From Deltaproteobacteria bacterium (GTDB lineage Bacteria > Desulfobacterota > Syntrophia > Syntrophales > Smithellaceae), in NCBI GenBank assembly GCA_012729055.1, contig JAAYDW010000093.1:1-36721 (forward strand): a stretch of DNA of 36,721 bases, in the 5' to 3' direction. A model generated the notes under the pieces. The model ran no database searches, had not been told where the DNA came from, and worked only from the letters and a program-made list of their open reading frames with translations. The translations under genes and the position numbers were made by a program. This document shows, one piece after another, positions 12,198-36,053 of the stretch; positions within the stretch are counted from its first letter, which is position 1; every line of letters starts with the position of its first letter.

Positions 12198-12210
12198 TCG
12201 CGCCTGTAAA

Positions 12211-19786: not shown

Positions 19787-22700
19787 GTGGTAAAAGATAA
19801 TGAAAAAGTTGGTGCAGTAATGGTGGTCGGATCCGGCATTGCCGGCATTCAGGCCTCTCTTGATTTAGCCAATTCCGGAATGAAAGTCTATCTCGTGGAA
19901 AACGGGATCAGCATCGGCGGTGTCATGGCCCAGCTGGACAAAACCTTTCCCACGAATGACTGCTCCGCCTGTATCCTTTCACCGAAGCTGGTTGAAGTCG
20001 GCCGCCATCCGAATGTCACGATCAAAACGAGACGGACGGTCGAATCCGTCGAGGGCGAACCGGGAAAATTCAAAGTTAAAATGACCTCCGCCCCCCGGTA
20101 CGTGAATCTGGACAAATGTACGGGATGCGGCGATTGCGCCAAGGTTTGCCCCATCACGGTCAAAGCCGAATTCAACGGCAATTTAAGCGAACGAAAAGCG
20201 ATCTACCGGCATTTTCCCCAGGCCATTCCCAGCGGCTTCGCGATCGACAAGCTGGGAACCTCTCCCTGCAAGGCCAACTGTCCCACGCACATCAGTGTTC
20301 AGGGGTATGTGGCGCTGATCGCCGAAGGGAAATTCAAGGAAGCCCTCAAGCTCATCAAGCAGGACAATCCGTTTCCCATCGTCTGCGGACGCGTCTGCAA
20401 CCATCCCTGTGAAACGGCCTGTATGCGCGGCAAGGTGGACGAACCCATCGACATCATGCATTTGAAACGCTTTGTCGCCGATCTCGATTTGAACGGCGAC
20501 ACGCGTTATCTGCCGGAAAAGAAGGAAAGCAAAGGCAAGAAAGTAGCGGTCATCGGCGCCGGCCCCTCGGGACTCACCTGCGCCTACTATCTGGCCGTCG
20601 AAGGCTACGACGTGGACGTCTTTGAAGCCCTGCCCGTGGCGGGCGGCTGGATGGCGGTCGGCATTCCCGAGTACCGTCTTCCCAAGAACGTCCTGAACGC
20701 GGAAATCAAGGTCATTCAGGATCTGGGCGTTAACATCCGCCTCAACACGAAAATCGGCAAAGACATTTCCTTCGACAAACTGAAAAGCGACTACAGCGCG
20801 ATCTTCATCGGCTGCGGCACGATGAAGAGCAGCAAGCTCAATATTCCCGGCGAAGACATGCAGGGTGTGATCCACGGCGTGGATTACCTGATGCAGATCA
20901 ACCTGGGCAAGAAAGTCAGCCTCGGCGACCGCGTGGCCGTCATCGGCGGCGGCAACGTTGCGATGGACGCGGTCCGCACGGCGGTGCGCACCGGGTCCAA
21001 GAACGTTTTCATCCTCTATCGCCGGACCCGCGCCGAAATGCCCGCCTCTCCGGAGGAAATCGAAGAAGCGCTGGAAGAAGGCATTGAAATGAAATTCCTC
21101 GTTGCTCCCAAACGCGTGGTGGGCAAGGACGGAAAAGTGACGGGCATCGAATGCACGCGCATGGAACTGGGCGAACCGGACAAGAGCGGCCGCCGCCGTC
21201 CCATTGAAATCAAAGGATCCGAATTTATTGTCGAATGCGACGCCATCGTTCCGGCCATCGGCCAGGAAGCGGACCTCTCCTTCATCAGCCAGGAAAGCGG
21301 CGTTTCCATCAACAAGTGGAACAACCTCGATTACGACGCCGTGACTTACGCCACCAACGTGCCGGGCGTTTTCACCGGCGGCGACGTGGCCACCGGGCCG
21401 CAGACGGTCGTCAAAGCGGTTTTCGCCGGCAAGGAAGCGGCCAAATCGATCGACCGATATCTGCAGGGCGCGGACATCAAAGCCGGACGCGAAAAAGACT
21501 GGACCAAGGATCTGGCGGACAAGGCGGATGTTTCGAGCGTTCCCAAAGTTCCCCGCGAAAAATATCCCCACATGAAACCGGAAGAGCGCCGCGTCAACTT
21601 CCAGGAAGTCGGCATCGGATTTTCCGAAGCGCAGGCAATCGCCGAAGCGCACCGCTGCCTGGCCTGCGGCATCTGCTCCGAATGCTACCAATGCGTGGAT
21701 GCCTGTATTGCCAAAGCCATCGACCATGACATGAAAGTGGAAGAAGAAACCATCGAAGTCGGCGCCGTGATCGCGTCGGCCGGTTTCCAGGTGTTTGACG
21801 CCAGCCAGCGCGGCGAGTACGGCTACGGTATTTATAAAAACGTGGTCACCGCGCTGCAGTTCGAGCGCATCCTGTCGGCGTCCGGTCCTTTCTTCGGCCA
21901 TGTCCAGAGAATTTCGGACGGCAAGGAGCCCAAAAAGGTCGCCTTCATCCAGTGCGTCGGCTCCCGCGACGTGTCCTGCGGCAACAGCTGGTGCTCTTCG
22001 GTCTGCTGCATGTACGCCACGAAAGAGGCGATCATCGGCAAGGAACACGCCAAGGGGCTGGAGCCGACCATTTTCTACATGGACATCCGCGCCCACGGCA
22101 AGGATTTCGACCGGTTCGTGAACCGGGCCAAGGACGAGTACGGCATCCGCTACATCCGCTCGATGCCGTCGTCGATCAAGGAATTACAGCAGACCAACAA
22201 CCTGCTCATCAAATACGTCAATCCCGACGGCACCTTCACCGAGGAAGAATTTGACATGGTGGTGCTGTCGGTCGGTCTGATGCCGCCCAAGGATGCCCAA
22301 AAACTGGCGGCCAGCCTGGGCATTGAACTCGAGGAACACGGCTTCTGCAAAACAGCGCTGGACAATCCCGTTCAGACGTCGCGCCCCGGTGTGTTCGTCT
22401 GCGGCGCGTTCGGCGGACCGAAAGACATTCCGGAAACCGTCATGGAAGCGTCCGCCGCCGCGGCCTGCGCGGAGGGGCTTCTCGCCTCCCAGCGCGGCAC
22501 GATGATTACGCCGGTGGAAAATCCGGAAGAAAAAGATCTGCGCGGCCAGGGCGTGCGCACCGGCGTGTTCGTCTGCCACTGCGGCATCAACATCGGCGGC
22601 GTGGTGAACGTGCCGGAAGTCCGCGACTACGCGGCGACCCTGCCGACCGTCGTTTACACGGCCGACAACCTCTTTACCTGTTCGCAGGACACGGCCGTGA

Positions 22701-24217
22701 AGATGGCGGAAGTGATCAAGGAGCAGAACCTGACCCGCGTGGTCGTCGCCTCCTGCTCGCCGCGGACGCACGAAGGCCTGTTCCAGGAAAACTGCGAGAA
22801 GGCCGGCTTGAACCGCTACCTGTTTGAGATGGCCAACATCCGCGACCAGAACTCCTGGGTGCACATGCACGAACCGGAAAAAGCCACGCAGAAAGCCAAG
22901 GATCTGCTGCGCATGGCGGTCGCCAAGGCCCAGTATTTGAAACCCTTGAAACCGGGCCAATTGCCGGTCAATCATCAGGCCTTGATCATCGGCGGCGGCC
23001 TGGCCGGCATCACTGCTGCGCTGTCGCTGGCGGACCAGGGATTCGCTTCCATGATTGTGGAAAAGGAAGACCGGCTGGGCGGCAACTACAACCACCTGTA
23101 CAAAACCCTTGAAGGCCTCGACACGCGGGCGCATCTCAAGAGCCTGCTCGAGAAGGTCTACAACAATCCGCTGATCACGGTGGCCACATCCGCCGAAATC
23201 CAGAAGATCGAAGGCTACATCGGCAACTACAAAACGACCGTGCAGACGAAAAAGGAAGGCGAGAAGGTTTTCGAGCACGGCGTGGTCCTCGTAGCCATCG
23301 GCGCCTACGAAAACAGTCCCAAGGAATACCTCTACGGTCAGAACGACAAGGTCAAGACGCAGCGCGAGCTGGAGAAACTGGTCTACGAAAAGGATCCGAA
23401 GCTGGCCGCTGTGAAAAACGTGGTCATGATTCAGTGCGTGGGCAGCCGCGATAAGGAAAGACCCTACTGCAGCCGCTACTGCTGCGGTGAAGCGATCAAG
23501 AACGCCCTTGAGCTCAAGGCCGCCGATCCGTCGCGCGACATCACGATCATTTACCGCGATATCCGCACCTTCGCTTTCAAGGAAGACTATTACAAGAAGG
23601 CGCGCGAAGCGAATATCAAGTTCATCTCCTACGAAGAAAACCGCAAGCCCGAAGTGGTGGCGGCGGGCGACAAGGTGGAAGTCAGAGTTTTCGACCCGAT
23701 TCTCAATGAACCGGTCAGCCTGCCTGCGGACGCCGTGGTCTTGAGCGTCGGCGTGGTGCCGAATCCGGAAAACGCGGCCATCGGCAACATGCTGAAGGTC
23801 CCCACCAACCAGGACGGCTTCTTCCTGGAAGCGCACGTCAAGCTGCGCCCGGTCGATTTTGCAACCGACGGCGTCTTCATGTGCGGCATGTCGCATTCAC
23901 CGAAGTACAGCGACGAAACAGTCACCCAGGCCAACGCGGCCGTATCGCGCGCCTGCACGGTTCTGACGCTCGATTACATCGAGGCGGAAGGCAAGACGGC
24001 TTACGTCAACAAGGAACGCTGCTCGGCCTGCGGACTTTGCGAAATCAACTGCCCTTACAGCGCGATCCGGGTGAACCCCGCGGAAGGGTGCGCCGAAGTG
24101 AACGCGGTTCTCTGCAAGGGCTGCGGTGTATGCACGGCATCGTGCCGCATGAACGCGGTGGACCTCAACGGGTTCAACAACGAGGAAGTGCTGGCCCAGA
24201 TATTTAATTTAAACTAA
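19787..24217 (+). CDS. HdrA-GltD-HdrA fusion flavoprotein
   Basis: A 1476-residue protein in three parts. Part 1 (1-150) starts an HdrA/QmoA-like FAD fold (GSGIAGIQASLDLA, near 16) and a 4Fe-4S motif (C111, C114, C117, C121). Part 2 (about 155-570) is a GltD/NfnB-like module: cysteines 200, 204, 208 and 212, an FAD site at GAGPSG (257-262), and an NAD(P)H site at GGGN near 387. HdrA part 1 then resumes, with a ferredoxin at C624-C640. Part 3 (about 927-1476) is a complete second HdrA: VFVCHCG, FAD site GGGLAG (1069-1074) and two 4Fe-4S motifs (C1412-C1422, C1443-C1453). HdrA is the flavin bifurcation subunit of heterodisulfide reductase. Three flavins and an NAD(P)H site suggest electron splitting between NAD(P)H, ferredoxin and HdrB. 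Start GTG 19787 has GAGGTG 7 bp upstream. Confidence 0.93.
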   Translation: MVKDNEKVGAVMVVGSGIAGIQASLDLANSGMKVYLVENGISIGGVMAQLDKTFPTNDCSACILSPKLVEVGRHPNVTIKTRRTVESVEGEPGKFKVKMTSAPRYVNLDKCTGCGDCAKVCPITVKAEFNGNLSERKAIYRHFPQAIPSGFAIDKLGTSPCKANCPTHISVQGYVALIAEGKFKEALKLIKQDNPFPIVCGRVCNHPCETACMRGKVDEPIDIMHLKRFVADLDLNGDTRYLPEKKESKGKKVAVIGAGPSGLTCAYYLAVEGYDVDVFEALPVAGGWMAVGIPEYRLPKNVLNAEIKVIQDLGVNIRLNTKIGKDISFDKLKSDYSAIFIGCGTMKSSKLNIPGEDMQGVIHGVDYLMQINLGKKVSLGDRVAVIGGGNVAMDAVRTAVRTGSKNVFILYRRTRAEMPASPEEIEEALEEGIEMKFLVAPKRVVGKDGKVTGIECTRMELGEPDKSGRRRPIEIKGSEFIVECDAIVPAIGQEADLSFISQESGVSINKWNNLDYDAVTYATNVPGVFTGGDVATGPQTVVKAVFAGKEAAKSIDRYLQGADIKAGREKDWTKDLADKADVSSVPKVPREKYPHMKPEERRVNFQEVGIGFSEAQAIAEAHRCLACGICSECYQCVDACIAKAIDHDMKVEEETIEVGAVIASAGFQVFDASQRGEYGYGIYKNVVTALQFERILSASGPFFGHVQRISDGKEPKKVAFIQCVGSRDVSCGNSWCSSVCCMYATKEAIIGKEHAKGLEPTIFYMDIRAHGKDFDRFVNRAKDEYGIRYIRSMPSSIKELQQTNNLLIKYVNPDGTFTEEEFDMVVLSVGLMPPKDAQKLAASLGIELEEHGFCKTALDNPVQTSRPGVFVCGAFGGPKDIPETVMEASAAAACAEGLLASQRGTMITPVENPEEKDLRGQGVRTGVFVCHCGINIGGVVNVPEVRDYAATLPTVVYTADNLFTCSQDTAVKMAEVIKEQNLTRVVVASCSPRTHEGLFQENCEKAGLNRYLFEMANIRDQNSWVHMHEPEKATQKAKDLLRMAVAKAQYLKPLKPGQLPVNHQALIIGGGLAGITAALSLADQGFASMIVEKEDRLGGNYNHLYKTLEGLDTRAHLKSLLEKVYNNPLITVATSAEIQKIEGYIGNYKTTVQTKKEGEKVFEHGVVLVAIGAYENSPKEYLYGQNDKVKTQRELEKLVYEKDPKLAAVKNVVMIQCVGSRDKERPYCSRYCCGEAIKNALELKAADPSRDITIIYRDIRTFAFKEDYYKKAREANIKFISYEENRKPEVVAAGDKVEVRVFDPILNEPVSLPADAVVLSVGVVPNPENAAIGNMLKVPTNQDGFFLEAHVKLRPVDFATDGVFMCGMSHSPKYSDETVTQANAAVSRACTVLTLDYIEAEGKTAYVNKERCSACGLCEINCPYSAIRVNPAEGCAEVNAVLCKGCGVCTASCRMNAVDLNGFNNEEVLAQIFNLN

Positions 24218-24261
24218 GGTAAACGGCCGATAAAGCCGCATTGCCGCTGGAAGGAGAATAT

Positions 24262-24702
24262 ATGGCTGAAAACACAGCAAACGCAGAATGGACACCCAAG
24301 TTCGTTGCCATTGTCTGCAACTGGTGCACGTACGCGGGAGCCGATCTGGCGGGGATCAGCAGGATTCAGTACCCGACGAACGTGCGCATCATCCGCGTTC
24401 CCTGCACGGGAAGAATCAATCCTTTTTATATCGTGAAAGCCTTGCAGACCGGCGCCGACGGCGTTCTGGTCTCGGGGTGACACCCGGGAGAATGCCACTA
24501 TATCTCAGGAAATCTGGTGGCGCGGCGCAAGTTTGCGACGTTAAAAAGTTTCCTGAACTACATCGGCGTGGAAGGCGACCGGACCATCTTTACCTGGGTT
24601 TCCGCCTCCGAAGGGGACAGATGGGCCCAGGTCATCAAAGGCGCTACGGAGAAAATAAAGGCACTGGGACCGGCCAACAAGTTGGTCAAGAAGATTGGCT
24701 AG
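24262..24702 (+). CDS. flxD: FlxD/MvhD iron-sulfur protein with in-frame UGA (probable selenocysteine)
   Basis: One 146-residue gene read through an in-frame TGA at codon 73 (24478-24480). Before the TGA comes [13 protein letters not shown] with C19 and C22, PCTGRINP with C48, and GADGVLVSG. After it comes HPGECHY with C78, then the normal MvhD ending. The paralogue at 32758-33174 has cysteine (C66) exactly here, in GGCHPGDCHY. MvhD passes electrons to HdrA through a 2Fe-2S cluster. Sec at an MvhD cysteine is known in some methanogens and deltaproteobacteria. ATG 24262 has AAGGAG 5 bp upstream. Both halves are conserved with no frame change, so a nonsense mutation is unlikely. The gene lies between the HdrA fusion and flxC. 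Confidence 0.9.
24481..24525 (+). promoter_or_regulatory. Possible bacterial SECIS hairpin after the UGA
   Basis: GCCAC (24494-24498) can pair with GTGGC (24517-24521), and CAG (24506-24508) with CTG (24514-24516), leaving a GAAAT loop about 30 bases after the UGA, the right distance for a SelB-binding element. The 7-base bulge is larger than in the E. coli fdhF element, so this is tentative. Confidence 0.3.
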
Positions 24703-24744: not shown

Positions 24745-25755
24745 GTGGAAAACATCGAAACAAAATTGCGGGAAGAAGCAAAAAGACTGCTTTTGGAAAA
24801 GAAGGCTGATGTCATCATCGGTTATGAAAAAGGCACGCTTCCGTTGACGGCGACGCCTTGTTTCATCACCAAGCCTGAAGAAGCCGACAAGCTGGTCTGG
24901 AACAACCTCTGCACGCAGAATCTGGCCAAGTTTGTGCACGATCTGATCACCCAGCACAAAAATTCACAAAAGCGCGTCAAGCCCGAAGACCGGAAGAAGA
25001 AAGTCGTAGGCGTCGTCGCCCGGGGCTGCACCACGCGTTCTCTCATCATCCACCTGCAGGAAAGACAGTATGGCCGCGAAGACATCTGCATTCTCGGCGT
25101 TCCCTGTGACGGTTACGTGGACGGCAAAGGACTGAAGGGAAAAATCGGCGGCGCGGACATCATCGACGGCGTTATCGAAGGCGGCCAGATCAAAATGAAG
25201 ACCTCCGACGGCGATAAAACCGTCGCGCTCAAAGAGGTGCTGGCCGACTGCTGCGTCACTTGCCGCTTCAACAATCCCATCATTTCCGACGTTCTGATCG
25301 GATCGCCTGCGCCGCCCATGAATCCGGAGGCGGAATACGACGACGTTACGGCCTTCGAATCCAAGCCCATTGAGGAGCGCTGGGCGTATTTCATCAAGGA
25401 AATGGAAAAATGCATGCGCTGCAACGCGTGCCGCCAGGCCTGCCCCTCCTGTTACTGCCCGATCTGCTTTGTCGAACAAAGCCAGCCGCAGTGGGTGGGC
25501 ATCGGCGAGGACGCCACCGATACGCAGGTCTTCCAGTTGATGAGGCTGTACCACATGGTCGGCCGCTGCGTGGACTGCGGATCGTGCGTTTCCGTCTGCC
25601 CGATGGGCGTGGATCTGCGCAAGTTCCTCAAAAAGATCGACAAGGACTGTTTCGAATTTTTCGGCAACCGCGCCGGGTCCGGCATGGAAGACATGCCGCC
25701 CCTGGGAAAATTCGACGAGCATCACGATAAAGGAGACTTTGTCTACAACCCGTAA
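24745..25755 (+). CDS. flxC: FlxC-like iron-sulfur electron carrier (cluster 1)
   Basis: A 336-residue protein. The N-terminal half resembles FrhB/FdhB-type domains and has cysteines at 39, 56, 95 (ARGCTTRS), 115, 121 (GVPCDG) and 179, 180, 183 (ADCCVTC), probably holding an extra Fe-S site. The C-terminal half has two 4Fe-4S motifs: C223, C226, C229, C233 with more cysteines at 236, 238 and 241, and C275, C278, C281, C285. In the Flx-Hdr system (described in Desulfovibrio) this protein is thought to relay electrons between FlxA/B and HdrA. The gene symbol is by cluster position and domain content. The start is GTG with only a weak ribosome site. Confidence 0.8.
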   Translation: MENIETKLREEAKRLLLEKKADVIIGYEKGTLPLTATPCFITKPEEADKLVWNNLCTQNLAKFVHDLITQHKNSQKRVKPEDRKKKVVGVVARGCTTRSLIIHLQERQYGREDICILGVPCDGYVDGKGLKGKIGGADIIDGVIEGGQIKMKTSDGDKTVALKEVLADCCVTCRFNNPIISDVLIGSPAPPMNPEAEYDDVTAFESKPIEERWAYFIKEMEKCMRCNACRQACPSCYCPICFVEQSQPQWVGIGEDATDTQVFQLMRLYHMVGRCVDCGSCVSVCPMGVDLRKFLKKIDKDCFEFFGNRAGSGMEDMPPLGKFDEHHDKGDFVYNP

Positions 25756-25778: not shown

Positions 25779-26306
25779 ATGGAAACTTTTCTGGAAGAAG
25801 TAAACAAAAAGATACACGGCGTTCCGCTGCAGGCCTGCTACCACTGTCGCAAATGCACCGCCGGCTGCCCCGCCGCGCCCTACATGGAATATAATCCCAA
25901 CAAGGTGATCAAGATGATCCAGAACGGGCAGAAGGATAAGGTGCTCTCGAGCTCGACCATCTGGGTGTGCCTGTCCTGCGAAACCTGCATCACCCGCTGC
26001 CCGAACCAGGTAGATATCGCGCGGATGATGGATGTGCTCCGTCAGATGGCCATTGAAGAAGGTCGGGCCGCCAAAGAGGCGAATGTCCTCAAATTTCACG
26101 AGGCGTTCCTGTCCAGCATCAAGTTCGGCGGCCGCGTCCATGAAATGCTGATGACGATCCACTACAAGCTCAAGTCCGGCGACTTCATGTCGGATGTGGA
26201 CATTGCCCCGAGCATGTTTTTCAAAGGGAAACTGGCGCTCTTGCCGCCGCGGACGCGCGATCTGAAATCGGTCCGAAACATTTTTGAGAAGACGAAAAGC
26301 AAATGA
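25779..26306 (+). CDS. hdrC: HdrC heterodisulfide reductase subunit C
   Basis: A 175-residue protein with two complete CxxCxxCxxxC motifs: C20, C23, C26, C30 (ACYHCRKCTAGCP) and C64, C67, C70, C74 (CLSCETCITRCP). That is the HdrC signature; each binds a 4Fe-4S cluster. HdrC wires electrons from HdrA to the disulfide-reducing site in HdrB. The rest is helical with no membrane segment, so it is a soluble subunit rather than the HdrE-linked membrane type. It lies 23 bp after flxC and before hdrB. The bacterial disulfide substrate is unknown. Confidence 0.92.
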   Translation: METFLEEVNKKIHGVPLQACYHCRKCTAGCPAAPYMEYNPNKVIKMIQNGQKDKVLSSSTIWVCLSCETCITRCPNQVDIARMMDVLRQMAIEEGRAAKEANVLKFHEAFLSSIKFGGRVHEMLMTIHYKLKSGDFMSDVDIAPSMFFKGKLALLPPRTRDLKSVRNIFEKTKSK

Positions 26307-26375: not shown

Positions 26376-27224
26376 TTGAAAGTTTCTTATTATCCGGGCT
26401 GCTCGCTGCATGGGATGGCAAAAGAGTATGATCAGTCCATGAAGGCCGTCAGTCGAGCCCTCAACATCGAACTTAAAGAAATTGACGATTGGTCCTGCTG
26501 CGGAGCATCGGCCGCGCACAACACGAATTTTGATCTGTCCATCGCCCTGCCGGCGCGCAACCTGATTGCCGCGGAAAAGGACGCCATGGACGTCATGGTC
26601 CCCTGCGCCGCCTGTTTCAACCGTTTCAAAACGGCGGAGCATCACCTGAAGGCCGACAAAGACCTGAAAGCCCGCATCGAGGGCGTGGTGGGCGCCAGGT
26701 ATTCGGGCGGGATCAGCATCCGCAACCCGATCGACGTGATTTACAATGAAATCGGCGTCGATGCGCTCGCGGCGAAAACGGTAAAACCGCTGGCGGGACT
26801 GAAGCCGGTTTCGTATTACGGCTGTCTGCTGCTCCGTCCGCCGGAGGTCTGCCAGTTTGAAAACTACGAAAACCCCTTCATGCTCGACAAGATCATGGGG
26901 GCCGTCGGAGCGGACGTGAAGAACTGGTCCTACAAAACCGATTGCTGCGGCGGTTCGCTGTCGGTCAGTAAGACGCCCATCGTCGTGGCGATGTGCGACA
27001 AGCTGATGGGCGCGGCCCGGGAGGCGGGCGCCAATTGTGTGGTCACGGCGTGTCCGATGTGCCTGGCCAACCTGGAAATGCGGCCCAGTCCGCAGATGAA
27101 GATGCCGGTCTTTTATTTTACGGAACTGATCTCGCTTGCGCTGGGGCTTCCCGGATCGCAGGAGACTTTTAAGACGCATTTGACGGATCCTCAGCCGCTG
27201 TTGAGTCAGTTGCGGCTGGTTTAG
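26376..27224 (+). CDS. hdrB: HdrB heterodisulfide reductase subunit B
   Basis: A 282-residue protein with two CCG domains, each expected to hold a non-cubane 4Fe-4S cluster that reduces disulfides. Domain 1: C9, C41-C42, C77, C80 (WSCCGAS, PCAACF). Domain 2: C150, C190-C191, C226, C229 (TDCCGGSL, ACPMC). All canonical cysteines are present, so the site looks active. The start is TTG 26376, supported by AAGGAGG (26361-26367) 8 bp before it and by the typical N-terminus VSYYPGCSLHG. It forms the catalytic end of cluster 1 with HdrC and the HdrA fusion. Confidence 0.93.
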   Translation: MKVSYYPGCSLHGMAKEYDQSMKAVSRALNIELKEIDDWSCCGASAAHNTNFDLSIALPARNLIAAEKDAMDVMVPCAACFNRFKTAEHHLKADKDLKARIEGVVGARYSGGISIRNPIDVIYNEIGVDALAAKTVKPLAGLKPVSYYGCLLLRPPEVCQFENYENPFMLDKIMGAVGADVKNWSYKTDCCGGSLSVSKTPIVVAMCDKLMGAAREAGANCVVTACPMCLANLEMRPSPQMKMPVFYFTELISLALGLPGSQETFKTHLTDPQPLLSQLRLV

Positions 27225-27285: not shown

Positions 27286-28308
27286 ATGGAAAAACGTTTG
27301 ATCAAAAAAGATGCACTGGCGGGCATTGCCAAGAAAATGGCCGGAGACTTGCTGGTTTGGGCGCCGGTAAAGAAAGAAGACAACGTTCTTTTTGCACCCC
27401 TCGGCGCGGGCGACGAGCCGTTTCTCGCCTACCTGAATACCAAGAATGCGCCGAAAAATGTTTTCTTCCCGCACACGGAGACCCTGATGAAATTTACCCG
27501 CACGCCGAAAGGCATGGAGTTTTCGTCGGAGGTCAATAAAGCCGACCAGTCGGTTTTATTCGGCGTGCGTCCCTGCGACGCGCACAGCTTTGTCCTTTTG
27601 GATAAGCTTTTCGACCAGGAAAAGTACAAGGACGGCTACTACATCGACAAACGGAAGAACACAACGGTGATCTCGTTGGCCTGCGTGAAACCGCCCTACA
27701 CGAGCTGCTTCTGCACGTCGGTGGACGGCGAGCCGGTGTCGGCCGACGGCGCGGATATTCTCCTCACCGACATCGGCGGCGATTACCTCGTGGAGTTTGT
27801 GACCGAAAAAGGGGAAAAGCTCGCCCAGTACTTCGGAGAGACGAAAGCCGACGCGGCGGCCGATGCGAAAAAAGCGGAAGCGGCCGCCAAGGTCAAAGAG
27901 GCGATAGCCTCGAAGATCCCCGCGCATGAAATCAAGCCGATTCTGGACGTCAATTTCGACAACCCGTTCTGGAATACGATTCACGGCAAATGCCTGGCCT
28001 GCGGCACGTGTACGTATCTGTGCCCCACCTGCCACTGCTTCGACATCAGCGACGAAGTCAAGGGATCGGATGGCGTGCGCCTCCGGTCGTGGGATTCCTG
28101 CATGTTCCCGCTTTTCACCAAAGAAACGTCGGGGCACAATCCCAGATCCTCCCAAAAGGAACGCTGGCGTCAGCGCGCGATGCACAAGTTCAAGTATTAT
28201 GTGGACATGTTCGACGCGATCGCCTGCGTCGGCTGCGGCCGATGCGTGATGTCCTGTCCGGTAAATATTGACATTCGTAAAATTGTTGCAGATATTTCAA
28301 AATTATAA
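27286..28308 (+). CDS. flxB: FlxB-like iron-sulfur protein (cluster 1, AsrA-related)
   Basis: A 340-residue protein related to anaerobic sulfite reductase subunit A and hydrogenase iron-sulfur subunits. The N-terminal domain has FGVRPCDAHSF with C97, then a second motif ACVKPPYTSCFC with C133, C141 and C143. An alanine/lysine-rich linker lies at about 187-215. The C-terminus has 4Fe-4S motifs C236, C239, C242, C246 (plus C249, C251) and C314, C317, C320, C324. It would pass electrons from FlxA's flavin towards HdrA. It stands 61 bp after hdrB and 14 bp before flxA, like asrAB pairs. Confidence 0.87.
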   Translation: MEKRLIKKDALAGIAKKMAGDLLVWAPVKKEDNVLFAPLGAGDEPFLAYLNTKNAPKNVFFPHTETLMKFTRTPKGMEFSSEVNKADQSVLFGVRPCDAHSFVLLDKLFDQEKYKDGYYIDKRKNTTVISLACVKPPYTSCFCTSVDGEPVSADGADILLTDIGGDYLVEFVTEKGEKLAQYFGETKADAAADAKKAEAAAKVKEAIASKIPAHEIKPILDVNFDNPFWNTIHGKCLACGTCTYLCPTCHCFDISDEVKGSDGVRLRSWDSCMFPLFTKETSGHNPRSSQKERWRQRAMHKFKYYVDMFDAIACVGCGRCVMSCPVNIDIRKIVADISKL

Positions 28309-28322
28309 TCAGGGAGTTCGTA

Positions 28323-29162
28323 ATGCAAAACCCGTATATACCGTATCCCGTTGTGGTGGATAAAATCATTACCGAGGTCGATACCAAGGACATCAAAACC
28401 TTCCGCTTCAAGTTTGTGAATCCGGAAGACGAACAGAAATACGCTTACATGCCGGGCCAGTTCGGCGAACTCTCCATTTTCGGCAAAGGCGAATCGCCGA
28501 TCGGTATCGCTTCCTCTCCGACGCAGAAAGGATACGTCGAATTCACCGTTCAGAAGGCCGGCGTCGTCACCTCGGCGCTGCACGAAATGGAAGAAGGCAC
28601 GGTGATGGGTATCCGCGGACCGCTCGGCAATTCCTGGCCGCTGCAGTTTCTGGAAGGAAAGAACATCGTCATCGTCGGCGGCGGATTTGCCTTCACGACG
28701 CTGCGGTCGATGATCAATTACGCGCTGCATGAGGACAACCGCAAGCGGTTCGGCAACATCACGGTCATCTACGGCGCGCGGAATCCCGGCCTGCTGCTGT
28801 ACAAAGACGAGCTCGAGGCCTGGGCGAAGCGGTCCGATATCAACCTCAACGTCACCGTGGACAAGGGCGACGCCACCTGGAAGGGGCGTGAAGGCTTTGT
28901 TCCGGCGGTCTGCAAGGACGTGGCCCCCAGCAAGGAAAACGCCGTCGCGCTGATCTGCGGCCCCCCTGTAATGATTCGTTTCACACTGCCGGTTTTCTTT
29001 GAACTCGGCTTTTCGAAGGAAAATATCATCACGTCTCTGGAAATGCGGATGAAATGCGGCATCGGCAAGTGCGGCCGCTGCAACGTCGGCAGCAAGTATG
29101 TCTGCAAGGACGGACCGGTCTTTTCCCTGGCGGAACTGGATAAACTGACGCCGGAATACTAA
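28323..29162 (+). CDS. flxA: FlxA-like FAD/NAD(P)-binding oxidoreductase (cluster 1)
   Basis: A 279-residue flavoprotein of the ferredoxin-NADP reductase/AsrB/dihydroorotate dehydrogenase electron-transfer group. The FAD domain includes MPGQFGELS and SPIGIASSP near residues 42-62. The NAD(P) domain includes GGGFAFTTLRSM near 119 and a LICGPPVMI segment near 216. The C-terminus carries a 2Fe-2S motif C245, C250, C253, C261 (CGIGKCGRC). It is expected to oxidise or reduce NADH for the complex. It is the last gene of cluster 1, followed by a strong terminator. Confidence 0.92.
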   Translation: MQNPYIPYPVVVDKIITEVDTKDIKTFRFKFVNPEDEQKYAYMPGQFGELSIFGKGESPIGIASSPTQKGYVEFTVQKAGVVTSALHEMEEGTVMGIRGPLGNSWPLQFLEGKNIVIVGGGFAFTTLRSMINYALHEDNRKRFGNITVIYGARNPGLLLYKDELEAWAKRSDINLNVTVDKGDATWKGREGFVPAVCKDVAPSKENAVALICGPPVMIRFTLPVFFELGFSKENIITSLEMRMKCGIGKCGRCNVGSKYVCKDGPVFSLAELDKLTPEY

Positions 29163-29342: not shown

Positions 29343-30518
29343 ATGTCACAAACGGTTACCCCTTATCTGGAAATGTCCCAGGCGATCATGGAAGCGGGAG
29401 GCGAGGCGCTGAAGAAATGCTACCAGTGCGGCACATGCAGCGGCACCTGTCCCTGGACGCCGATCACCCATTTCAATATCCGCAAACTCGTGCGCTACGG
29501 CCAGCTCGGTCTGGACGGCATCGAGGATTTCATGTGGGGCTGCTCGACCTGCCGGTTCTGCGTGGAACGCTGTCCGCGGGGCGTTGAAATCATCGATATC
29601 GTCACGGCCATCCGCAACGTTTACAGCGGCGGCGGCATGCTGCCGCAGAGCCTGCGGGCTTTTGTCGGATCCCTTTCGGCCCGCGGCAATCCCTGGTCCG
29701 GCGATCCGGACAGGCGCAACGACTGGGCCAAGGAAAAATACCCCGTTTACGCGCCGGGCATGGACTACCTGTTCTGGACCTGCTGCACGGTGTGTTACGA
29801 TCCGCGCAACACGAGGCTCGCGAAAGCGGCGGCGGAAATCCTGAATCTGGCCGGCGCAAGCTGGGGGATGCCGTCGCTTGACGTCAACTGCTGCGGCGAG
29901 AGTCTGCGCAAAGTGGGCGACGCGGAGCTTTTCGAGCGGCTCAAAGCGAAAAACCTGGACTATTTCAAAGCCCAGGGGGTCTCCAAAATCATCACGGTTT
30001 CCCCGCATTGCCTGGCGTCTTTCGACGAGGACTACGGCGCGGATTTCGAGGTCGTGCATTTGAGCGAACTTATGGCCAAATGGATACAGGAGGGAAAACT
30101 CGTTCCCAAAAAGGATTTCGGCGGACTGACCGTAACGTACCACGATCCCTGCTATCTGGGCCGGCACAGCAAGGTCTACGACGCGCCGCGCGACATTCTC
30201 AAGGCTCTGCCGGGCGTGACGTTTGTCGAGATGGAGCGCAACAGCGAGGAAAGCATGTGCTGCGGCGGCGGGGGCGGCGGACTGTGGACGGAGAAAGCCA
30301 AAGGCGAACGCCTGAGCGATCTGCGCATCGAGGAAGCGATGGGGACCGGCGCGACCGTGCTGGCGACGGCCTGCCCTTACTGCATTACCATGTTTGAAGA
30401 CAGCAAGCGGACGCTCAATGTCGACGAACAGATTCAGATCCGGGACGTGACGGAGCTCGTCCTCGAAAGCTTGGAAATCAGCATTGACGAACCGGTCGGA
30501 GACGCTTGCGCCGTTTGA
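29343..30518 (+). CDS. HdrD-like (HdrCB fusion) protein, first gene of cluster 2
   Basis: A 391-residue protein combining HdrC and HdrB functions. N-terminal 4Fe-4S motifs are C26, C29, C32, C36 and C67, C70, C73, C77. Two CCG domains follow. The first has C147-C148, C151 and C183-C184 but ends SPHC (S220, C223), so one cysteine of the usual CxxC is serine. The second is complete: C270, C306-C307, C344, C347. The closest general family is HdrD, also seen as BamD in benzoyl-CoA reductase complexes; no BamB gene is here. It would be the terminal disulfide-reducing subunit for the second HdrA. An unusual glycine run follows CCG (GGGGGG). Confidence 0.88.
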   Translation: MSQTVTPYLEMSQAIMEAGGEALKKCYQCGTCSGTCPWTPITHFNIRKLVRYGQLGLDGIEDFMWGCSTCRFCVERCPRGVEIIDIVTAIRNVYSGGGMLPQSLRAFVGSLSARGNPWSGDPDRRNDWAKEKYPVYAPGMDYLFWTCCTVCYDPRNTRLAKAAAEILNLAGASWGMPSLDVNCCGESLRKVGDAELFERLKAKNLDYFKAQGVSKIITVSPHCLASFDEDYGADFEVVHLSELMAKWIQEGKLVPKKDFGGLTVTYHDPCYLGRHSKVYDAPRDILKALPGVTFVEMERNSEESMCCGGGGGGLWTEKAKGERLSDLRIEEAMGTGATVLATACPYCITMFEDSKRTLNVDEQIQIRDVTELVLESLEISIDEPVGDACAV

Positions 30519-30644: not shown

Positions 30645-32594
30645 ATGAGCAGAATAGGTGTTTTTGTTTGCCACTGCGGCTTGAATATCGCCAAAACGGT
30701 GCGGGTGAGCGAGCTCGCCGAGTTTGCGGCGACGCTGCCGGACGTCGTTGTGGCGAAAGACTACAAGTTCATGTGTTCCACGCCCGGTCAGGAAATGATA
30801 GCCAATGACATTAAAGAACACCGGCTGGACCGGGTCATTGTCACCGCCTGTTCGCCTCTGATGCACGAACAGACATTTCGCAAGGTCCTGGCGGCCTCCG
30901 GCCTCAACCAGTACCTGCTTTCGATCGTCAACATCCGCGAGCAGGTGTCCTGGGTGACGCATGATATCGACGAAGGCACGGCCAAGGCCAAGGCGCTGCT
31001 CAACGGCGCGGTGCGCCGGGCGCGGCTGCTGGCGCCGCTCACGTCGCGCGTGATCGACGTGAATTCCGACGTCCTGGTGGTGGGCGGCGGCATCGCCGGC
31101 ATCCAGGCCGCCCTGGAGCTGGCCAACACGGGCAAGAAAGTCTACCTCGTCGAAAAGAATTCCACTATCGGCGGCCACATGGCGCAGTTCGACAAGACGT
31201 TTCCGACGCTGGACTGCTCCGCCTGCATTCTGACGCCCAAAATGGACAGCGTGCTTCAGCACAAAAACATTCAACTGATGACCTCCTGCGAGGTGAGCGA
31301 GGTCAAGGGATTCGTCGGCAACTTTGACATCACGATCCGGCAGAAGGCGCGCTATGTCGACCACACCAAGTGCAACGCGTGTCTGGCCTGCACGGAAAAG
31401 TGCCCCGGCAAGGGCGTTTCCGAGTGGGACGAGGGCCTGGTCAAGCGCAAGGCCATCTACATTCCCTTTCCGCAGGCCGTGCCGCAGAAGCCGGTCATCG
31501 ACCGCGACGCCTGCACGTTTTTCAAGAAGGGCAAATGCCGCCTGTGCGAGAAGGTCTGTGAACAGAAGGCCATCGATTTCGAGCAGCAGGACACCTTCAC
31601 CACGGTGAAGGTCGGAGCGGTCATCGTGGCGACCGGCTACGATCTGATGGACACCCGGTCGCTCATCCAGTACGGCTACGGGAAGTATCCCGGCGTATAC
31701 AACGCTCTGGAAGTGGAGCGGCTTTTCAACTCCGCCGGCCCCACGGGCGGGAAAGTAACGCTGCGCGACGGGAAAGAGCCGCAGGCGATCGCCATTCTGC
31801 ACTGCATCGGCAGCCGGGACAAGAACAACTACGAACACTGCAGCCGGGTGTGCTGCATGTATTCGCTCAAGTTCGCGCACCTGTTCAAGGAGAAAACCTC
31901 CGCCGACGTTTATCAGTTCTACATCGACATGCGGGCCGCCGGCAAAGGCTATGAGGAATTCTACAACCGCATCATCGAGGAGGACGTGAAGTTCATCCGC
32001 GGGAAGGGCGCGCGCGTAGCGCAGAGCGCCGACGAGCCGGATCGCCTGGTGGTGGAGGCCGAAGACACGATTACCGGGAAATTCATCAAACTGCCCGTGG
32101 ACATGGTTGTGCTCTCGCCGGCCATCATTCCCCGCGGGGACGCCAAAGACGTCGCCCGGCTGTTCAATCTGAGTACGGACAAGTACGGCTTCTTCATGGA
32201 GCGGCATCCCAAGCTGGCGCCCCTGTCCACCATGTCGGAAGGCGTGTTTATCGCCGGCGTCTGCCAGAGCCCGAAGGATATTCCGGACACGGTGGCGCAG
32301 GCTTACGGCGCGGCGGCGGAAGCCCTGACGATTGTCGTGAAGGACAAGCTGGAGCTCGAGGCCACCACCGCCATGGTGAATCCCGCGTCCTGCTGCGCCT
32401 GCCAGAACTGCGTGCGGGTCTGCCCCTACGGCGCGCCGTTCTTCAACGAGACCAAAGGGGTTTCGGAGATCAACGAGGCGCTGTGCAAGGGCTGCGGCCT
32501 TTGCGCGTCCGTTTGTCCTCCGTCGGCGATTATCGCGCGGCATTTCACGAACGACCAGGTGCTGGCGGAGATGGAAGGCTTGCTGGAGTTCTAG
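30645..32594 (+). CDS. hdrA: HdrA heterodisulfide reductase subunit A (cluster 2)
   Basis: A 649-residue HdrA of normal length. It starts with VFVCHCGLN (C9, C11), then has the FAD site GGGIAG (147-152), the DCSACILTPK motif (C191, C194), a 4Fe-4S motif C243, C246, C249, C253, a second inner group (C290, C298, C301, C305), the CIGSRD...CSRVCC region, and two C-terminal ferredoxin motifs (CCACQNCVRVCP and CKGCGLCASVCP). This is the flavin site where electrons are split or joined between low- and high-potential partners. Unlike the cluster 1 version, it has no GltD insert and no second HdrA copy. A strong ribosome site AGGAGAAGG precedes ATG 30645. Confidence 0.95.
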   Translation: MSRIGVFVCHCGLNIAKTVRVSELAEFAATLPDVVVAKDYKFMCSTPGQEMIANDIKEHRLDRVIVTACSPLMHEQTFRKVLAASGLNQYLLSIVNIREQVSWVTHDIDEGTAKAKALLNGAVRRARLLAPLTSRVIDVNSDVLVVGGGIAGIQAALELANTGKKVYLVEKNSTIGGHMAQFDKTFPTLDCSACILTPKMDSVLQHKNIQLMTSCEVSEVKGFVGNFDITIRQKARYVDHTKCNACLACTEKCPGKGVSEWDEGLVKRKAIYIPFPQAVPQKPVIDRDACTFFKKGKCRLCEKVCEQKAIDFEQQDTFTTVKVGAVIVATGYDLMDTRSLIQYGYGKYPGVYNALEVERLFNSAGPTGGKVTLRDGKEPQAIAILHCIGSRDKNNYEHCSRVCCMYSLKFAHLFKEKTSADVYQFYIDMRAAGKGYEEFYNRIIEEDVKFIRGKGARVAQSADEPDRLVVEAEDTITGKFIKLPVDMVVLSPAIIPRGDAKDVARLFNLSTDKYGFFMERHPKLAPLSTMSEGVFIAGVCQSPKDIPDTVAQAYGAAAEALTIVVKDKLELEATTAMVNPASCCACQNCVRVCPYGAPFFNETKGVSEINEALCKGCGLCASVCPPSAIIARHFTNDQVLAEMEGLLEF

Positions 32595-32757: not shown

Positions 32758-33174
32758 ATGTCATTTGAACCGAAAATACTGGGCATCGCCTGCAACTGGT
32801 GCACCTATACGGGAGCGGATCTGGCGGGGACCACGCGGCTGCAGTACCCGCAGAATATCCGGGTGGTCCGCGTGATGTGTTCGAGCCGGATCAATCCTTC
32901 GTTTATCTTCCGCGCGTTTCAGCTGGGCGCCGACGGCGTGCTGATCGGCGGCTGCCATCCCGGCGACTGCCACTACAACACGGGCAACCTTTATGCCCGC
33001 CGGCGTCTGGCCGTCACCAAAAAGATCCTGGAGTTTTCCGGCATGGAGCCGGGACGGTTCCGCGTGGAATGGATATCCGCCTCGGAAGGCAACCGGTTTG
33101 CCGAAGTCGTGCGGGAGTTTACCGAGCAGATCCGGGATCTCGGTCCTCAGACCAAGTTTAAGATTTCACAATAG
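32758..33174 (+). CDS. flxD: FlxD/MvhD iron-sulfur protein, cysteine form (cluster 2)
   Basis: A 138-residue paralogue of the cluster 1 UGA-containing protein, with all-cysteine ligands: C12 and C15 (CNWCTY), C41, C66 and C71 (GGCHPGDCHY). Blocks GADLAG, QYPQNIRVVRV, RINPSFI, GADGVLIGG and WISASEGNRFAEV align along the whole length. It would pass electrons to or from HdrA2 through a 2Fe-2S cluster. The ribosome site AAAGGA precedes ATG 32758. It lies after the palindromic element and 14 bp before flxC2. Confidence 0.93.
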   Translation: MSFEPKILGIACNWCTYTGADLAGTTRLQYPQNIRVVRVMCSSRINPSFIFRAFQLGADGVLIGGCHPGDCHYNTGNLYARRRLAVTKKILEFSGMEPGRFRVEWISASEGNRFAEVVREFTEQIRDLGPQTKFKISQ

Positions 33175-33188
33175 CGTTGGGAGAAGAT

Positions 33189-34055
33189 ATGGCTATCAGC
33201 TTTGAACAAATTGAACAGCACCTGAAAACCGAAGCCCTCAAGCTTCTGGAAAGCGGCAAGGTCATCCTGGTTCTGGCCTACGGCAGGGGGTACGATGCAA
33301 ATCATCCCATGCCCTATGTGGCGAAGCACCCGTCCGATGTAGACAACATCGTATTCAACGAATACTGCACGGCCAACCTGGCCCGTTACCTGACCCGGTA
33401 CCCCCGCCGGACGAAGATCGCCATCGCCGTGAAGGCGGCGGACAGCCGGGCCGTCGTCCAGCTGATCCAGGAAGACAAGGTCTGCCGCGAGGATCTGGTG
33501 GTGCTGGGCATTCCCGTTTACGGCATGAAGAATTTCAAGACCGGGGAGGTCATCGACAGCAAAACGACCGGCGGCCTGTACAATCCGGTGCTCTACGATA
33601 TTCTCCTGGGTGAGGAAGTGCACGGGCAGCCTGTTTCGTCTCCCTACGATGTTCTGGCGGCGTATGAGGCCATGGACAAGGAAGAGCGCTGGGCGTTCTG
33701 GCAACGGGAACTCGGCCGGTGCATCCGCTGCTACGCCTGCCGCAAGGCCTGTCCGATGTGCTACTGCGATCCGTGCTTTATCGATCAGAACAAGCCCAAG
33801 TGGGGCGAGAAGTCGCCTGAATCCCCCGGCAACCTGATGTACCACCTGACCCGGTTCCACCATCTGGCCGGCCGGTGCATCGACTGCGGCGAATGTTCGC
33901 GGGCCTGCCCGGTGGACATTCCTCTGTACCTGTTCCACAAGAAAGTGGCCAAGGACTGCGAGGAGATGTTCGGCCAGGCGGCGGGCATGAGCATCGGCGA
34001 CAAGCCCGTTCTGGTGAATTTCCGCGTGGACGATTCCGATAAAATTCTGGAGTAA
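33189..34055 (+). CDS. flxC: FlxC-like iron-sulfur protein lacking the N-terminal cysteines (cluster 2)
   Basis: A 288-residue paralogue of the protein at 24745-25755. The C-terminal ferredoxin motifs are intact (RCIRCYACRKACPMCYCDPC and GRCIDCGECSRACP). The N-terminal half keeps C60 (EYCTANLARY) but not the counterparts of C39, C95, C121 or the C179/C180/C183 group; about 40 residues around that group are also missing. ATG 33189 is chosen over the upstream TTG 33177, which overlaps the only ribosome site (GGGAGA). It should still relay electrons through its two 4Fe-4S clusters. Confidence 0.83.
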   Translation: MAISFEQIEQHLKTEALKLLESGKVILVLAYGRGYDANHPMPYVAKHPSDVDNIVFNEYCTANLARYLTRYPRRTKIAIAVKAADSRAVVQLIQEDKVCREDLVVLGIPVYGMKNFKTGEVIDSKTTGGLYNPVLYDILLGEEVHGQPVSSPYDVLAAYEAMDKEERWAFWQRELGRCIRCYACRKACPMCYCDPCFIDQNKPKWGEKSPESPGNLMYHLTRFHHLAGRCIDCGECSRACPVDIPLYLFHKKVAKDCEEMFGQAAGMSIGDKPVLVNFRVDDSDKILE

Positions 34056-34067
34056 GGAGCTTTGCTT

Positions 34068-35123
34068 GTGTTGAAGAAAACAACTATCGATAAATTGCCT
34101 GAACTGGCGGCTTGCCTCATGGAAAAGGGGACGCTGGTCGCCCCGGTGAAAGAAGCCGGCGGCTTTAACTTCCGCGCCATCACCGACGCCGCTCAGGTGG
34201 ATTTGATTTTTCACAATACCATTTTGAGCCCGAAGACGGTCTTCTTTCCGCAGACGGAGGATTTTGTCCGGTATTCCGTGTATCAGCCGATTCTGGAGGC
34301 GAAACCGGTTGAGCCCGAGATCAGGCCGACCTTCCTGTTCGGCGTTCGTCCCTGCGACGTGAAAAGCTTCGAGATCATGGATATCCATTTTACCCGGACG
34401 GGCGTGCCCGATCCCTACTGGCGCAAGCGGCGGGACGCGACCATCATCTTCGGCTTTGCCTTCGATACCAGCGAAGAAGCGGATCCGGCGGAGTTTTACC
34501 ACACACTGGGCATCGGCGCCGCCGATCCCGACGGCAGCGATGTCTTCATGCTGCGCCGGGACGATGTTTTGTTTCTGAAGGCCGTGAGCCCGCGGGGAGA
34601 AAATCTGCTGGGCGGCCTGGCGGGGCTTACGGACGCCGCGCCGGACGAGCGGAAATATTTTGACGACTACATCGCGCAGGGGCACGACTACAAAACCCGT
34701 TACACCTGCGTCGACGCGGAGGCGATTGCGAAGGAGTTCGAGGCGATCTTCCACAACACGGACTTCTGGACCAAGGTGTCCAACGCCTGCCTGAGCTGCG
34801 GCATCTGCACCTTCGTCTGCCCGACCTGCTACTGCTTCGACATCTGCGACGAAACGCAATTCGGCCAGGGCGTGCGCCGGCGCGTCTGGGACGCCTGCAT
34901 GTTCACGGACTTCACGCTGGAGGCCAGCGGCCACAATCCGCGGACCCAGGTGTATCAGCGCCTGCGCCAGAAGATCTGCCACAAATACTCGTTCCACATC
35001 CGCAAGTACGGACCGATCTCCTGTGTCGGCTGCGGCCGCTGCACGCGCTACTGCCCGGTCAACATCGATATCTTTTCCATCGTCGAGCAGGCGGTGCAGG
35101 CGAAATGGTACAAGAGGATGTAA
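34068..35123 (+). CDS. flxB: FlxB-like iron-sulfur protein (cluster 2)
   Basis: A 351-residue AsrA-related paralogue of the 27286-28308 protein. It keeps FGVRPCDVKSF and both C-terminal 4Fe-4S motifs (ACLSCGICTFVCPTCYC, SCVGCGRCTRYCP). The CVKPPYTSCFC motif of cluster 1 is replaced by a stretch with no cysteine (FDTSEEADPAEFYHT). The alanine/lysine linker is replaced by different sequence. I choose GTG 34068, 8 bp after AAGGAG (34054-34059); TTG 34062 is too close and TTG 34071 is possible. It lies 12 bp after flxC2. Confidence 0.85.
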   Translation: MLKKTTIDKLPELAACLMEKGTLVAPVKEAGGFNFRAITDAAQVDLIFHNTILSPKTVFFPQTEDFVRYSVYQPILEAKPVEPEIRPTFLFGVRPCDVKSFEIMDIHFTRTGVPDPYWRKRRDATIIFGFAFDTSEEADPAEFYHTLGIGAADPDGSDVFMLRRDDVLFLKAVSPRGENLLGGLAGLTDAAPDERKYFDDYIAQGHDYKTRYTCVDAEAIAKEFEAIFHNTDFWTKVSNACLSCGICTFVCPTCYCFDICDETQFGQGVRRRVWDACMFTDFTLEASGHNPRTQVYQRLRQKICHKYSFHIRKYGPISCVGCGRCTRYCPVNIDIFSIVEQAVQAKWYKRM

Positions 35124-35192: not shown

Positions 35193-36053
35193 ATGTCAGA
35201 AAACAACCCCTACATTCCCATGCCGGTGGAGATCTCCAAAATCATCGACGAGGTGGATACGCACGACATCAAGACCTTCCGCTTCACCTTCGTCAACAAG
35301 GACGACGAGCAGAAATTCGTTTATCTGCCCGGCCAGTTCGCCGAATTGTCGATTTACGGCAAGGGGGAATCCCCGATCGGCATCGCCTCGGCGCCGACCG
35401 ACGCGGGCTATGTGGAATTCACGGTGCAGCGGGCCGGAGCGATTCTGCCGGGGCTCGTCACCTCCGCGCTGCACGACATGGACGAAGGCGGACGGATCGG
35501 TCTGCGCGGGCCGCTGGGGCATTCCTGGCCGATCGAATTTCTGGAAAAGAAAAACATCGTCGTGGTCGGCGGCGGATTCGCCTTTACCACGCTGCGGTCG
35601 CTGGTGAAGTACATGCTGCACAAGGACAACCGCTCCCGCTTCGGCGACATCACCGTCATTTACGGGGCGCGGACCCCCGGCCTGCTCTGCTACAAGGATG
35701 AACTGGCCGCCTGGGAAAAGCGCAGCGACATCAAAACCATCATCACCGTCGACAAGGGCAATGAAACCTGGACCGGACGGGAAGGCTTCGTTCCGGCGGT
35801 CTGCAAGGACGTTGCGCCGTCGCCTGAAAACGCCGTCGCCGTGATTTGCGGTCCGCCCGTCATGATCAAGTTCACGCTGCCGGTGTTTTTCGAACTGGGC
35901 TTCTCCAAGGAAAACATTCTGACGTCGCTGGAAATGCGCATGAAGTGCGGCATCGGCAAATGCGGCCGCTGCAACGTCGGCTACAAGTACGTCTGCTCCG
36001 ACGGACCGGTCTTTTCGCTGGCCGAACTCGAAGATCTGCCGAGGGACTTCTGA
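35193..36053 (+). CDS. flxA: FlxA-like FAD/NAD(P)-binding oxidoreductase (cluster 2)
   Basis: A 286-residue paralogue of the 28323-29162 protein and very similar to it. The FAD segment LPGQFAELS and SPIGIASAP, the NAD(P) segment GGGFAFTTLRSL and the 2Fe-2S motif CGIGKCGRC are conserved. It has a short insertion (AILPGL, about residues 84-89) between FTVQRAG and VTSALH. It is expected to be the NAD(H)-facing entry point of cluster 2. Its TGA stop overlaps the next gene's ATG by one base (TGATG). Confidence 0.92.
   Translation: MSENNPYIPMPVEISKIIDEVDTHDIKTFRFTFVNKDDEQKFVYLPGQFAELSIYGKGESPIGIASAPTDAGYVEFTVQRAGAILPGLVTSALHDMDEGGRIGLRGPLGHSWPIEFLEKKNIVVVGGGFAFTTLRSLVKYMLHKDNRSRFGDITVIYGARTPGLLCYKDELAAWEKRSDIKTIITVDKGNETWTGREGFVPAVCKDVAPSPENAVAVICGPPVMIKFTLPVFFELGFSKENILTSLEMRMKCGIGKCGRCNVGYKYVCSDGPVFSLAELEDLPRDF

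Follow-up and report, generated by a model that had tools for sequence, protein, structure and literature searches.

A selenocysteine-type FlxD gene in Smithellaceae and a solo cysteine copy that may be its selenium-regulated spare

The stretch of DNA analysed here (hereafter the window, 36,721 nucleotides, from the Smithellaceae genome G000) carries two neighbouring Flx-Hdr gene clusters, the features of which are collected in Table 1. Cluster 1 constitutes one operon combining FlxD with HdrA in its long HdrL form, HdrB, HdrC and Flx-type genes for NAD(P)H/FAD and Fe-S subunits, and the selenocysteine (Sec) FlxD is its only selenoprotein. This HdrL-FlxD-HdrCB-Flx operon is widespread across Syntrophales. 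In the Flx lettering, we take the AsrA-type and AsrB-type subunits of cluster 1 to be FlxC-like and FlxA-like, respectively, while the name HdrL follows the accessible text of an earlier study (PMC2702500). Elsewhere in the window, a bacterial RNase P RNA of class A (11829-12202, 331 bits) and a tRNA (10306-10378) were detected.

Table 1. Genes and sequence features of clusters 1 and 2 in the window.
Feature	Coordinates	Strand	Evidence
HdrL-type protein, 1476 aa, first gene of cluster 1	19787..24217	+	HdrA-type regions flank a GltD/NADPH-type FAD module; NF040770 HdrA2 (4 stretches), GltD-type NF009410 (585 bits), Pfam
FlxD/MvhD with selenocysteine, GUHPGECHY at codon 73	24262..24702	+	Pfam FlpD 1e-50 across the TGA
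In-frame TGA (Sec codon)	24478..24480	+	
Predicted bSECIS hairpin, GCCAC (24494-24498) pairing with GUGGC (24517-24521)	24494..24521	+	
Fe-S subunit, cluster 1 (4Fe-4S dicluster domains)	24745..25755	+	Pfam, synteny
HdrC-like	25779..26306	+	TIGR03290 76.7 bits, below cut-off; synteny
HdrB-like (CCG domains)	26376..27224	+	PF02754; TIGR03288 156.7 bits, below cut-off; synteny
AsrA/sulfhydrogenase-beta type Fe-S subunit	27286..28308	+	Pfam and NCBIfam, below curated cut-offs
AsrB/sulfhydrogenase-gamma type FAD-NAD(P) subunit	28323..29162	+	NCBIfam, below curated cut-offs
HdrCB (HdrD)-like subunit, cluster 2	29343..30518	+	PF02754, Fer4
HdrA, cluster 2	30645..32594	+	NF040770 795.5 bits, below cut-off; synteny
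FlxD/MvhD of the second subfamily, Cys, GCHPGDCHY	32758..33174	+	Pfam FlpD 2.2e-54; 55% identical to the Sec form
Fe-S subunit, cluster 2; positional counterpart of 24745-25755	33177..34055	+	Position, synteny; no NCBIfam match at 1e-30
AsrA/sulfhydrogenase-beta type subunit, cluster 2	34062..35123	+	Below curated cut-offs
AsrB/sulfhydrogenase-gamma type subunit, cluster 2	35193..36053	+	Below curated cut-offs

The FlxD frame of cluster 1 encodes a 146-aa FlxD/MvhD-type protein and contains one TGA at codon 73, in the context ...GVLVSG-TGA-HPGECHY.... Its read-through translation matches the full Pfam FlpD domain (PF02662, 1e-50, profile positions 2-123 of 123), so that an earlier sequence-only reading of this DNA was right to regard the gene as intact, with FlpD homology on either side of the TGA. 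The split calling predicted by the same reading was also borne out, translation table 11 giving a 79-aa ORF (24241-24480) and a 61-aa ORF (24517-24702). The alignment places the TGA, as had been claimed, opposite C66 of the Cys FlxD of cluster 2, and Sec replaces one of five Cys residues that are otherwise invariant in this alignment. The suggested search for selA, selB, selC and selD recovered all four in the G000 assembly (3.36 Mb, 113 contigs, completeness 100), with tRNA-Sec at 76.2 bits (cut-off 47), SelA at 599 bits, SelB at 355 bits and SelD at 379 bits, the last carrying an in-frame TGA of its own. An FlpD match with a single internal TGA was present in 36 of the 51 Smithellaceae genomes. 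Among 39 distinct Smithellaceae operon copies read at the DNA level, the position of codon 73 was TGA in 35 and Cys in four, a ratio that is not that of a survey, since most stretches were chosen because the FlpD search had shown a TGA.

The predicted bSECIS hairpin starts at the 14th base past the TGA. Its stem is whole in all 18 distinct Sec sequences, and it is also kept in six of eight solo Cys copies (described below) and two of four operon Cys copies; no covariation was found in the stem across the 18 Sec sequences. The folding energy of single sequences was no better than that of shuffles (z 0.72, -0.27 and -0.05), and silent-site conservation was therefore used instead. Among the 35 Sec copies, silent-site identity after the TGA was 0.89 for codons +1 to +13 and 0.90 for codons +14 to +25, compared with 0.68-0.73 elsewhere in the same genes. 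For the same stretch the values were 0.70 and 0.57 in eight solo Cys copies, and 0.52 and 0.49 in the second FlxD subfamily. The freeze of silent sites in Sec FlxD thus reaches to about codon +25.

The gene is of selenoprotein type, an in-frame UGA standing where Cys is otherwise conserved, and its reading as Sec is based on the combination of Sec machinery, silent-site freeze and codon alignment. A sequencing error, or a true stop in a decaying gene, is hardly credible as an explanation of the TGA, given that 35 of the 39 operon copies share it and the remaining four have Cys, that the amino acids downstream are conserved with their silent sites frozen, and that the Sec machinery is complete. 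No evidence of error or decay at this codon was found, and its frequency in the 36 Smithellaceae genomes and in the operon copies argues against chance.

The sequence-only reading had further paired the Sec FlxD with the Cys FlxD of the adjacent cluster, proposing that the two differ in rate, potential or selenium supply. The adjacency is real: the two genes lie 8.2-8.9 kb apart on the 17 contigs bearing both, and the clusters adjoin across Smithellaceae wherever contigs are long enough, except that cluster 2 is further off in G002 and no second cluster lies within the stretches L066 and L073. However, the neighbouring gene does not encode a Cys version of the Sec FlxD. Its product belongs to another subfamily (55% identity, GDCHY versus GECHY) and has Cys in all 34 distinct Smithellaceae copies read, and cluster 2 supplies a separate HdrA and separate partners. 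Because two different subfamilies are involved, adjacency in itself says nothing about rate, potential or selenium supply, and the 8-kb pair is best read as two distinct FlxD types in a long-standing arrangement. That the cluster 2 protein is nevertheless the counterpart of the Sec form, as the conserved spacing on 17 contigs might suggest, is very improbable in view of its divergence, its own partners and its invariant Cys; this candidate was dropped once a closer Cys form had been found in the same genome, on contig C74. A further FlpD subfamily (CCHYCAYAAADLAG) was observed in G016 (L092:17690-18139) beside a 1488-aa ORF that is HdrL-like in appearance.

This third FlxD of G000 (C74, 6447-6884, minus strand) lies outside any Hdr cluster, carries the motif GCHPGECHY and is 83% identical to the Sec FlxD, so that Sec and a close Cys form occur within one genome. 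On the FlxD strand it is followed by genes for a double-cubane-cluster protein (NF040772, 466 bits), YedF (TIGR03527, 210 bits) and a Se/S-carrier protein (PF11823, 62 bits), and then by a sulfonate-type ABC transporter (SsuA-like, below cut-off). Upstream of the solo gene on the same contig, a metallo-beta-lactamase-fold protein (L080:7160-7936, minus strand; PF00753, 5.6e-14) has one in-frame TGA (EILSAUHDLP) and could be a further selenoprotein or a broken gene.

Such solo Cys copies, 83-90% identical to Sec FlxD, were initially seen in eight Smithellaceae genomes. Across Syntrophales, an extra Cys FlxD occurs, among the matches listed, in 11 of 41 genomes with the Sec form and in none of 49 Cys-only genomes, a count confined to genomes with a match and to rows of at least 74% identity. 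Fisher's test for this association gives p 7.6e-5, computed without correction for kinship. An earlier tally within Smithellaceae (8/36 genomes with Sec versus 0/11), which predates the solo copy of G035, was superseded as too small. Among the named loci (best 80 of 174), all nine solo copies share an assembly with a Sec operon, for example in Smithella sp. SCADC (JQDQ01000172 and JQDQ01000168); these are largely the same genomes as in the order-wide count and do not constitute independent evidence. The solo copy is missing from the assemblies of 30 of the 41 Sec genomes among the matches listed, and in G012 and G021 it is reduced to relics, indicating that it is not needed everywhere. In the relics (L100 of G012 and L108 of G021:C75) the upstream element described below is kept, with the FlxD gene missing or cut.

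When the first eight solo genes were read, their neighbours were found to differ and their upstream element to be the same. It consists, in order, of the palindrome GAATA-N13-TATTC, three bases, TTAGTNATTTGAC with a -35-like TTGAC inside, and a -10-like CATATA; the palindrome is exact at six of the eight genes and has one mismatch at two. The element was found by pattern in 8 of 11 solo copies; it is altered in a ninth (G035) and absent from L137 and L149, which come from outside Smithellaceae. A search of the 51 Smithellaceae genomes with the pattern derived from the eight solo genes returned 11 sites, with none in the reversed control, namely the eight genes themselves, the relics of G012 and G021, and one site before a rhodanese gene in G021. 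Since the re-finding of the eight is circular, only the sites elsewhere, the palindrome where it lies outside the pattern, and the LysR adjacency reported below are independent of the derivation. The first pattern, run across Syntrophales, gave 16 sites versus 2 in the control and added to the 11 Smithellaceae sites those in G139 (desulfurase), G070 (DoxX-rhodanese) and G072 (HdrA), as well as G065 and G141, both of which fell under the listing threshold in a later scan.

The core pattern returned 31 sites in 155 Syntrophales genomes, versus 5 in the reversed control; a search at class level covered the same set. Besides eight FlxD genes and the two relics, these comprise 21 other sites, eight of which directly precede genes for YedE (two), a TIGR01977 desulfurase (two) or a double-cubane protein (four), the last counted as a selenium gene solely through its neighbours. 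The two YedE selenium transporters scored 483 and 487 bits. YedF or a Se/S carrier follows at four of these eight sites: a Se/S carrier after YedE in G063 and after the desulfurase in G139, YedF after the desulfurase in G014, and a partial YedF (62 bits) after the double-cubane gene in G017, while the double-cubane gene of G048 is a fragment. At the remaining sites we found a sulfonate-type binding protein (2/21, with a double-cubane protein next in G074), a rhodanese (3/21), Cys HdrA with Cys FlpD at 0.6 and 1.1 kb from the element (2/21), an Fe-S protein (1/21), a ModA-like protein (1/21) and no selenium link (3/21); these assignments cover 20 of the 21 sites, the other one (G074:C34) having come without its locus. 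The core sites in G007, G103 and G127 look like chance matches.

The palindrome was no part of the core pattern. It recurs at the same spacing and without mismatch at five non-FlxD sites (HdrA in G072 and G073, the Fe-S protein in G074, the double-cubane protein in G081 and YedE in G082), with one mismatch at the rhodanese of G021, and with two at G077 and one site of G082; it is weak or absent (3-4 mismatches) at nine other non-FlxD sites with a plausible target. By sequence, then, the Cys FlxD promoter, as found by pattern in the 8 of 11 copies, is one that selenium genes have in common. The Sec/Cys pair informative on selenium supply would accordingly be that of the window gene and the C74 FlxD, whose promoter and neighbours do point to selenium, and not the neighbouring pair of the sequence-only reading. 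A different signal, sulfur supply or redox state, could in principle govern the element, with the Cys FlxD merely following it. The three rhodanese sites, two with proteins that resemble the TsoB model over its N-terminal part, and the two sulfonate-type binding proteins fit such a signal, which we nonetheless regard as quite unlikely because YedE, YedF, the Se/S carrier and an NF040786 LysR gene are found at other element sites.

Several of these loci deserve separate mention. In L239 (G072), L240 (G073) and L241 (G074), which represent another family, a TGA-free HdrA gene and a gene for a Cys FlpD bearing ferredoxin domains lie downstream of the element or in the same region, and a second element-like stretch was noticed by eye in the long leader of L240. 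This arrangement may represent a Cys backup of a whole operon. DoxX-like and rhodanese genes follow the element in L196 (G071), L191 (G070) and L212 (G077); the rhodanese genes of L196 and L212 contain no stop, and their products show similarity, at scores far below cut-off, to the N-terminal region of TsoB (NF045694), a selenoprotein model.

As regards a regulator, the selenium-metabolism-associated LysR family NF040786 (LysR_Se) scores above cut-off in 91 of the 155 Syntrophales genomes, including G000 (C9:47783-48664, 271 bits). Its gene adjoins the element in three genomes, namely G063 (divergent, at about 84 bases), G077 (about 100) and G014 (about 320), and in G022 its distance to the solo FlxD is 3.3 kb. 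G021 and G024 carry the solo copy and gave no LysR_Se match at E 1e-60; in G024 a partial LysR_Se gene stands at a contig end (L090, 114 bits). The family was itself predicted from gene neighbourhood, and the main text of the respective paper uses neither 'binding site' nor 'promoter' as a term (PMC5322559). Its adjacency in G063, G077 and G014 makes LysR_Se the candidate regulator at the element.

Taken together, these observations suggest the following model. The HdrL-Flx complex is predicted, by analogy, to be electron-bifurcating and of the FlxABCD-HdrABC type, and the [2Fe-2S] cluster of FlxD would carry electrons between HdrL and the Flx subunits on the NAD(P)H side; for MvhD, one [2Fe-2S] cluster at electron-transfer distance to HdrA is described in the accessible text of PMC5861303. 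At low selenium, a LysR_Se-type regulator acting at the GAATA-N13-TATTC operator would raise the transcription of genes for selenium uptake and salvage together with that of the Cys FlxD, which would then substitute for the unfinished Sec FlxD in the same HdrL-Flx complex. With selenium present, the Cys FlxD gene would stay quiet. Only the FlxD subunit would need to be exchanged, as it is the sole selenoprotein of the operon, and the direction of the response is suggested by the uptake genes in the set and by the parallel with methanogens. We read the solo Cys FlxD as a spare D subunit belonging to a selenium regulon because it shares the element with the same kinds of genes as in Methanococcus. 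It seems to us probable that the Cys FlxD is a selenium-regulated spare of the HdrL-Flx complex, controlled through a LysR_Se-type regulator. With somewhat more reserve, we favour the broader proposal of a bacterial selenium regulon whose operator can be read, the solo Cys FlxD, under a LysR_Se-type switch of uptake and salvage, replacing the Sec FlxD and keeping HdrL-Flx running without selenium.

The gene order at some solo loci also allows for the Cys FlxD to be no spare of the HdrL complex at all, instead serving as an electron carrier of a selenium/sulfur pathway that feeds the adjacent double-cubane reductase or YedF. The ORFs for FlxD, the double-cubane protein and YedF are consecutive in G043 with 12-base gaps and follow the same order on one strand in G000, a double-cubane gene lies within a few kb of the solo FlxD in G022 and G034, and such a role would itself account for the membership of the solo FlxD in a selenium regulon. 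Still, we hold it to be unlikely. No double-cubane or YedF gene was seen near the solo copies of G008, G015, G021 and G024 (by eye, on partial contigs, most of them unscanned), and the solo copies are much closer to the Sec FlxD (83-90% identity) than is the other subfamily (55%). Moreover, a second copy is lacking in all 49 Cys-only genomes among the matches listed, though these genomes may have such reductases too.

Concerning the evolution of FlxD, 51 genomes outside Smithellaceae have a match of at least 74% identity, of which, among the matches listed, 45 have Cys only and six have TGA. In a tree of 84 rows, with at least two genes entered twice and the Sec codon omitted, the Sec forms make up two groups (31 and 6) nested in Cys forms, and the solo copies form three groups by DNA and two by protein, with mixed support. 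With that mixed tree support in mind, Cys appears to be the older state in FlxD, and the solo copies do not appear to be recent. Since the spares fall into two or three groups with such support, their association with the Sec form may reflect few events. Four Smithellaceae genomes, G002, G017, G025 and G029, have Cys in the operon FlxD (L081, L096, L083 and L095, respectively) despite the presence of SelB and are natural cases of Sec/Cys replacement among Smithellaceae. A Cys codon in the operon gene was consequently rejected as a mark of lost Sec machinery. The contig L178 (JAQUQK010000184.1), filed under a Candidatus Thermoplasmatota assembly, also carries a Sec FlxD like that of Smithella (97% identity across 123 aa), and its assignment is probably a binning error.

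When selenium runs short, a genome that depends on a Sec subunit requires an alternative. Sec/Cys isoform switching by selenium has been worked out in methanogens, while for bacteria a LysR-type regulator has been predicted, with no operator given in the accessible texts. The element described here makes the question of a selenium switch testable in Syntrophales and names candidate targets, namely YedE, YedF, the desulfurase, the double-cubane protein, the ABC binding protein, rhodaneses and the Cys HdrA-FlpD operon. In addition, a natural Sec/Cys pair that differs in one subunit of a predicted bifurcating complex offers a clean route to the role of Sec.

In the accessible parts of the literature, several elements of this picture are already known. 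That MvhD/FrhD-type proteins can contain Sec in methanogens and deltaproteobacteria, which the sequence-only reading had taken as established, is indeed published (PMC1794560; PMC2702500). In particular, a 2006 survey listed FrhD with 19 bacterial selenoproteins and Sec/Cys conversions in both directions (PMC1794560), and a 2009 study described HdrL beside mvhD as well as Sec-MvhD and Cys paralogues within one genome, raising the replacement of Sec by Cys forms under selenium limitation as a possibility only (PMC2702500). The FrhD/MvhD of Syntrophobacter, Syntrophus and Desulfobacterium autotrophicum belong to the same protein family and carry Sec, but neither a solo Cys copy nor a regulatory element is described in the accessible text of these accounts (PMC1794560; PMC2702500). 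Our literature search found no work pairing Smithella with selenocysteine, and for a bacterial selenium-LysR isoform regulon only papers on Methanococcus and MetJ turned up. As far as this search extends, the solo Cys spare of a single subunit and the promoter tying it to selenium genes are new.

The operon make-up of cluster 1 is the same as that of FlxABCD-HdrABC, with HdrL in place of HdrA and Sec in FlxD. That system, attributed to Ramos et al. in 2015, reportedly has a single operon for HdrABC, FlxD and the Flx subunits of the NAD(P)H side.

With regard to regulation, the closest comparison is with Methanococcus, where, according to the accessible texts, the LysR-type HrsM silences Cys operons while selenium is present (PMC11097638; PMC5322559), and selenium depletion raises YedE together with a binding protein of molybdate type (PMC11097638). 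As with the Vhu/Vhc and HdrA isoforms of Methanococcus, a Sec MvhD-type subunit and a Cys isoform are found in one genome, and the candidate regulator is likewise of LysR type, from the LysR_Se/HrsM subfamily (accessible text of PMC5322559), with a gene in G000 and a place beside the element in three genomes. Unlike in Methanococcus, where whole operons (vhc, frc) form the Cys set, the Smithellaceae set consists of one solo subunit gene, the host is a bacterium and the promoter is another one; switching has been demonstrated in Methanococcus and is predicted in Smithellaceae. If the prediction is true, the Vhu/Vhc switch of methanogens has a bacterial equivalent in Syntrophales, pared down to a single gene.
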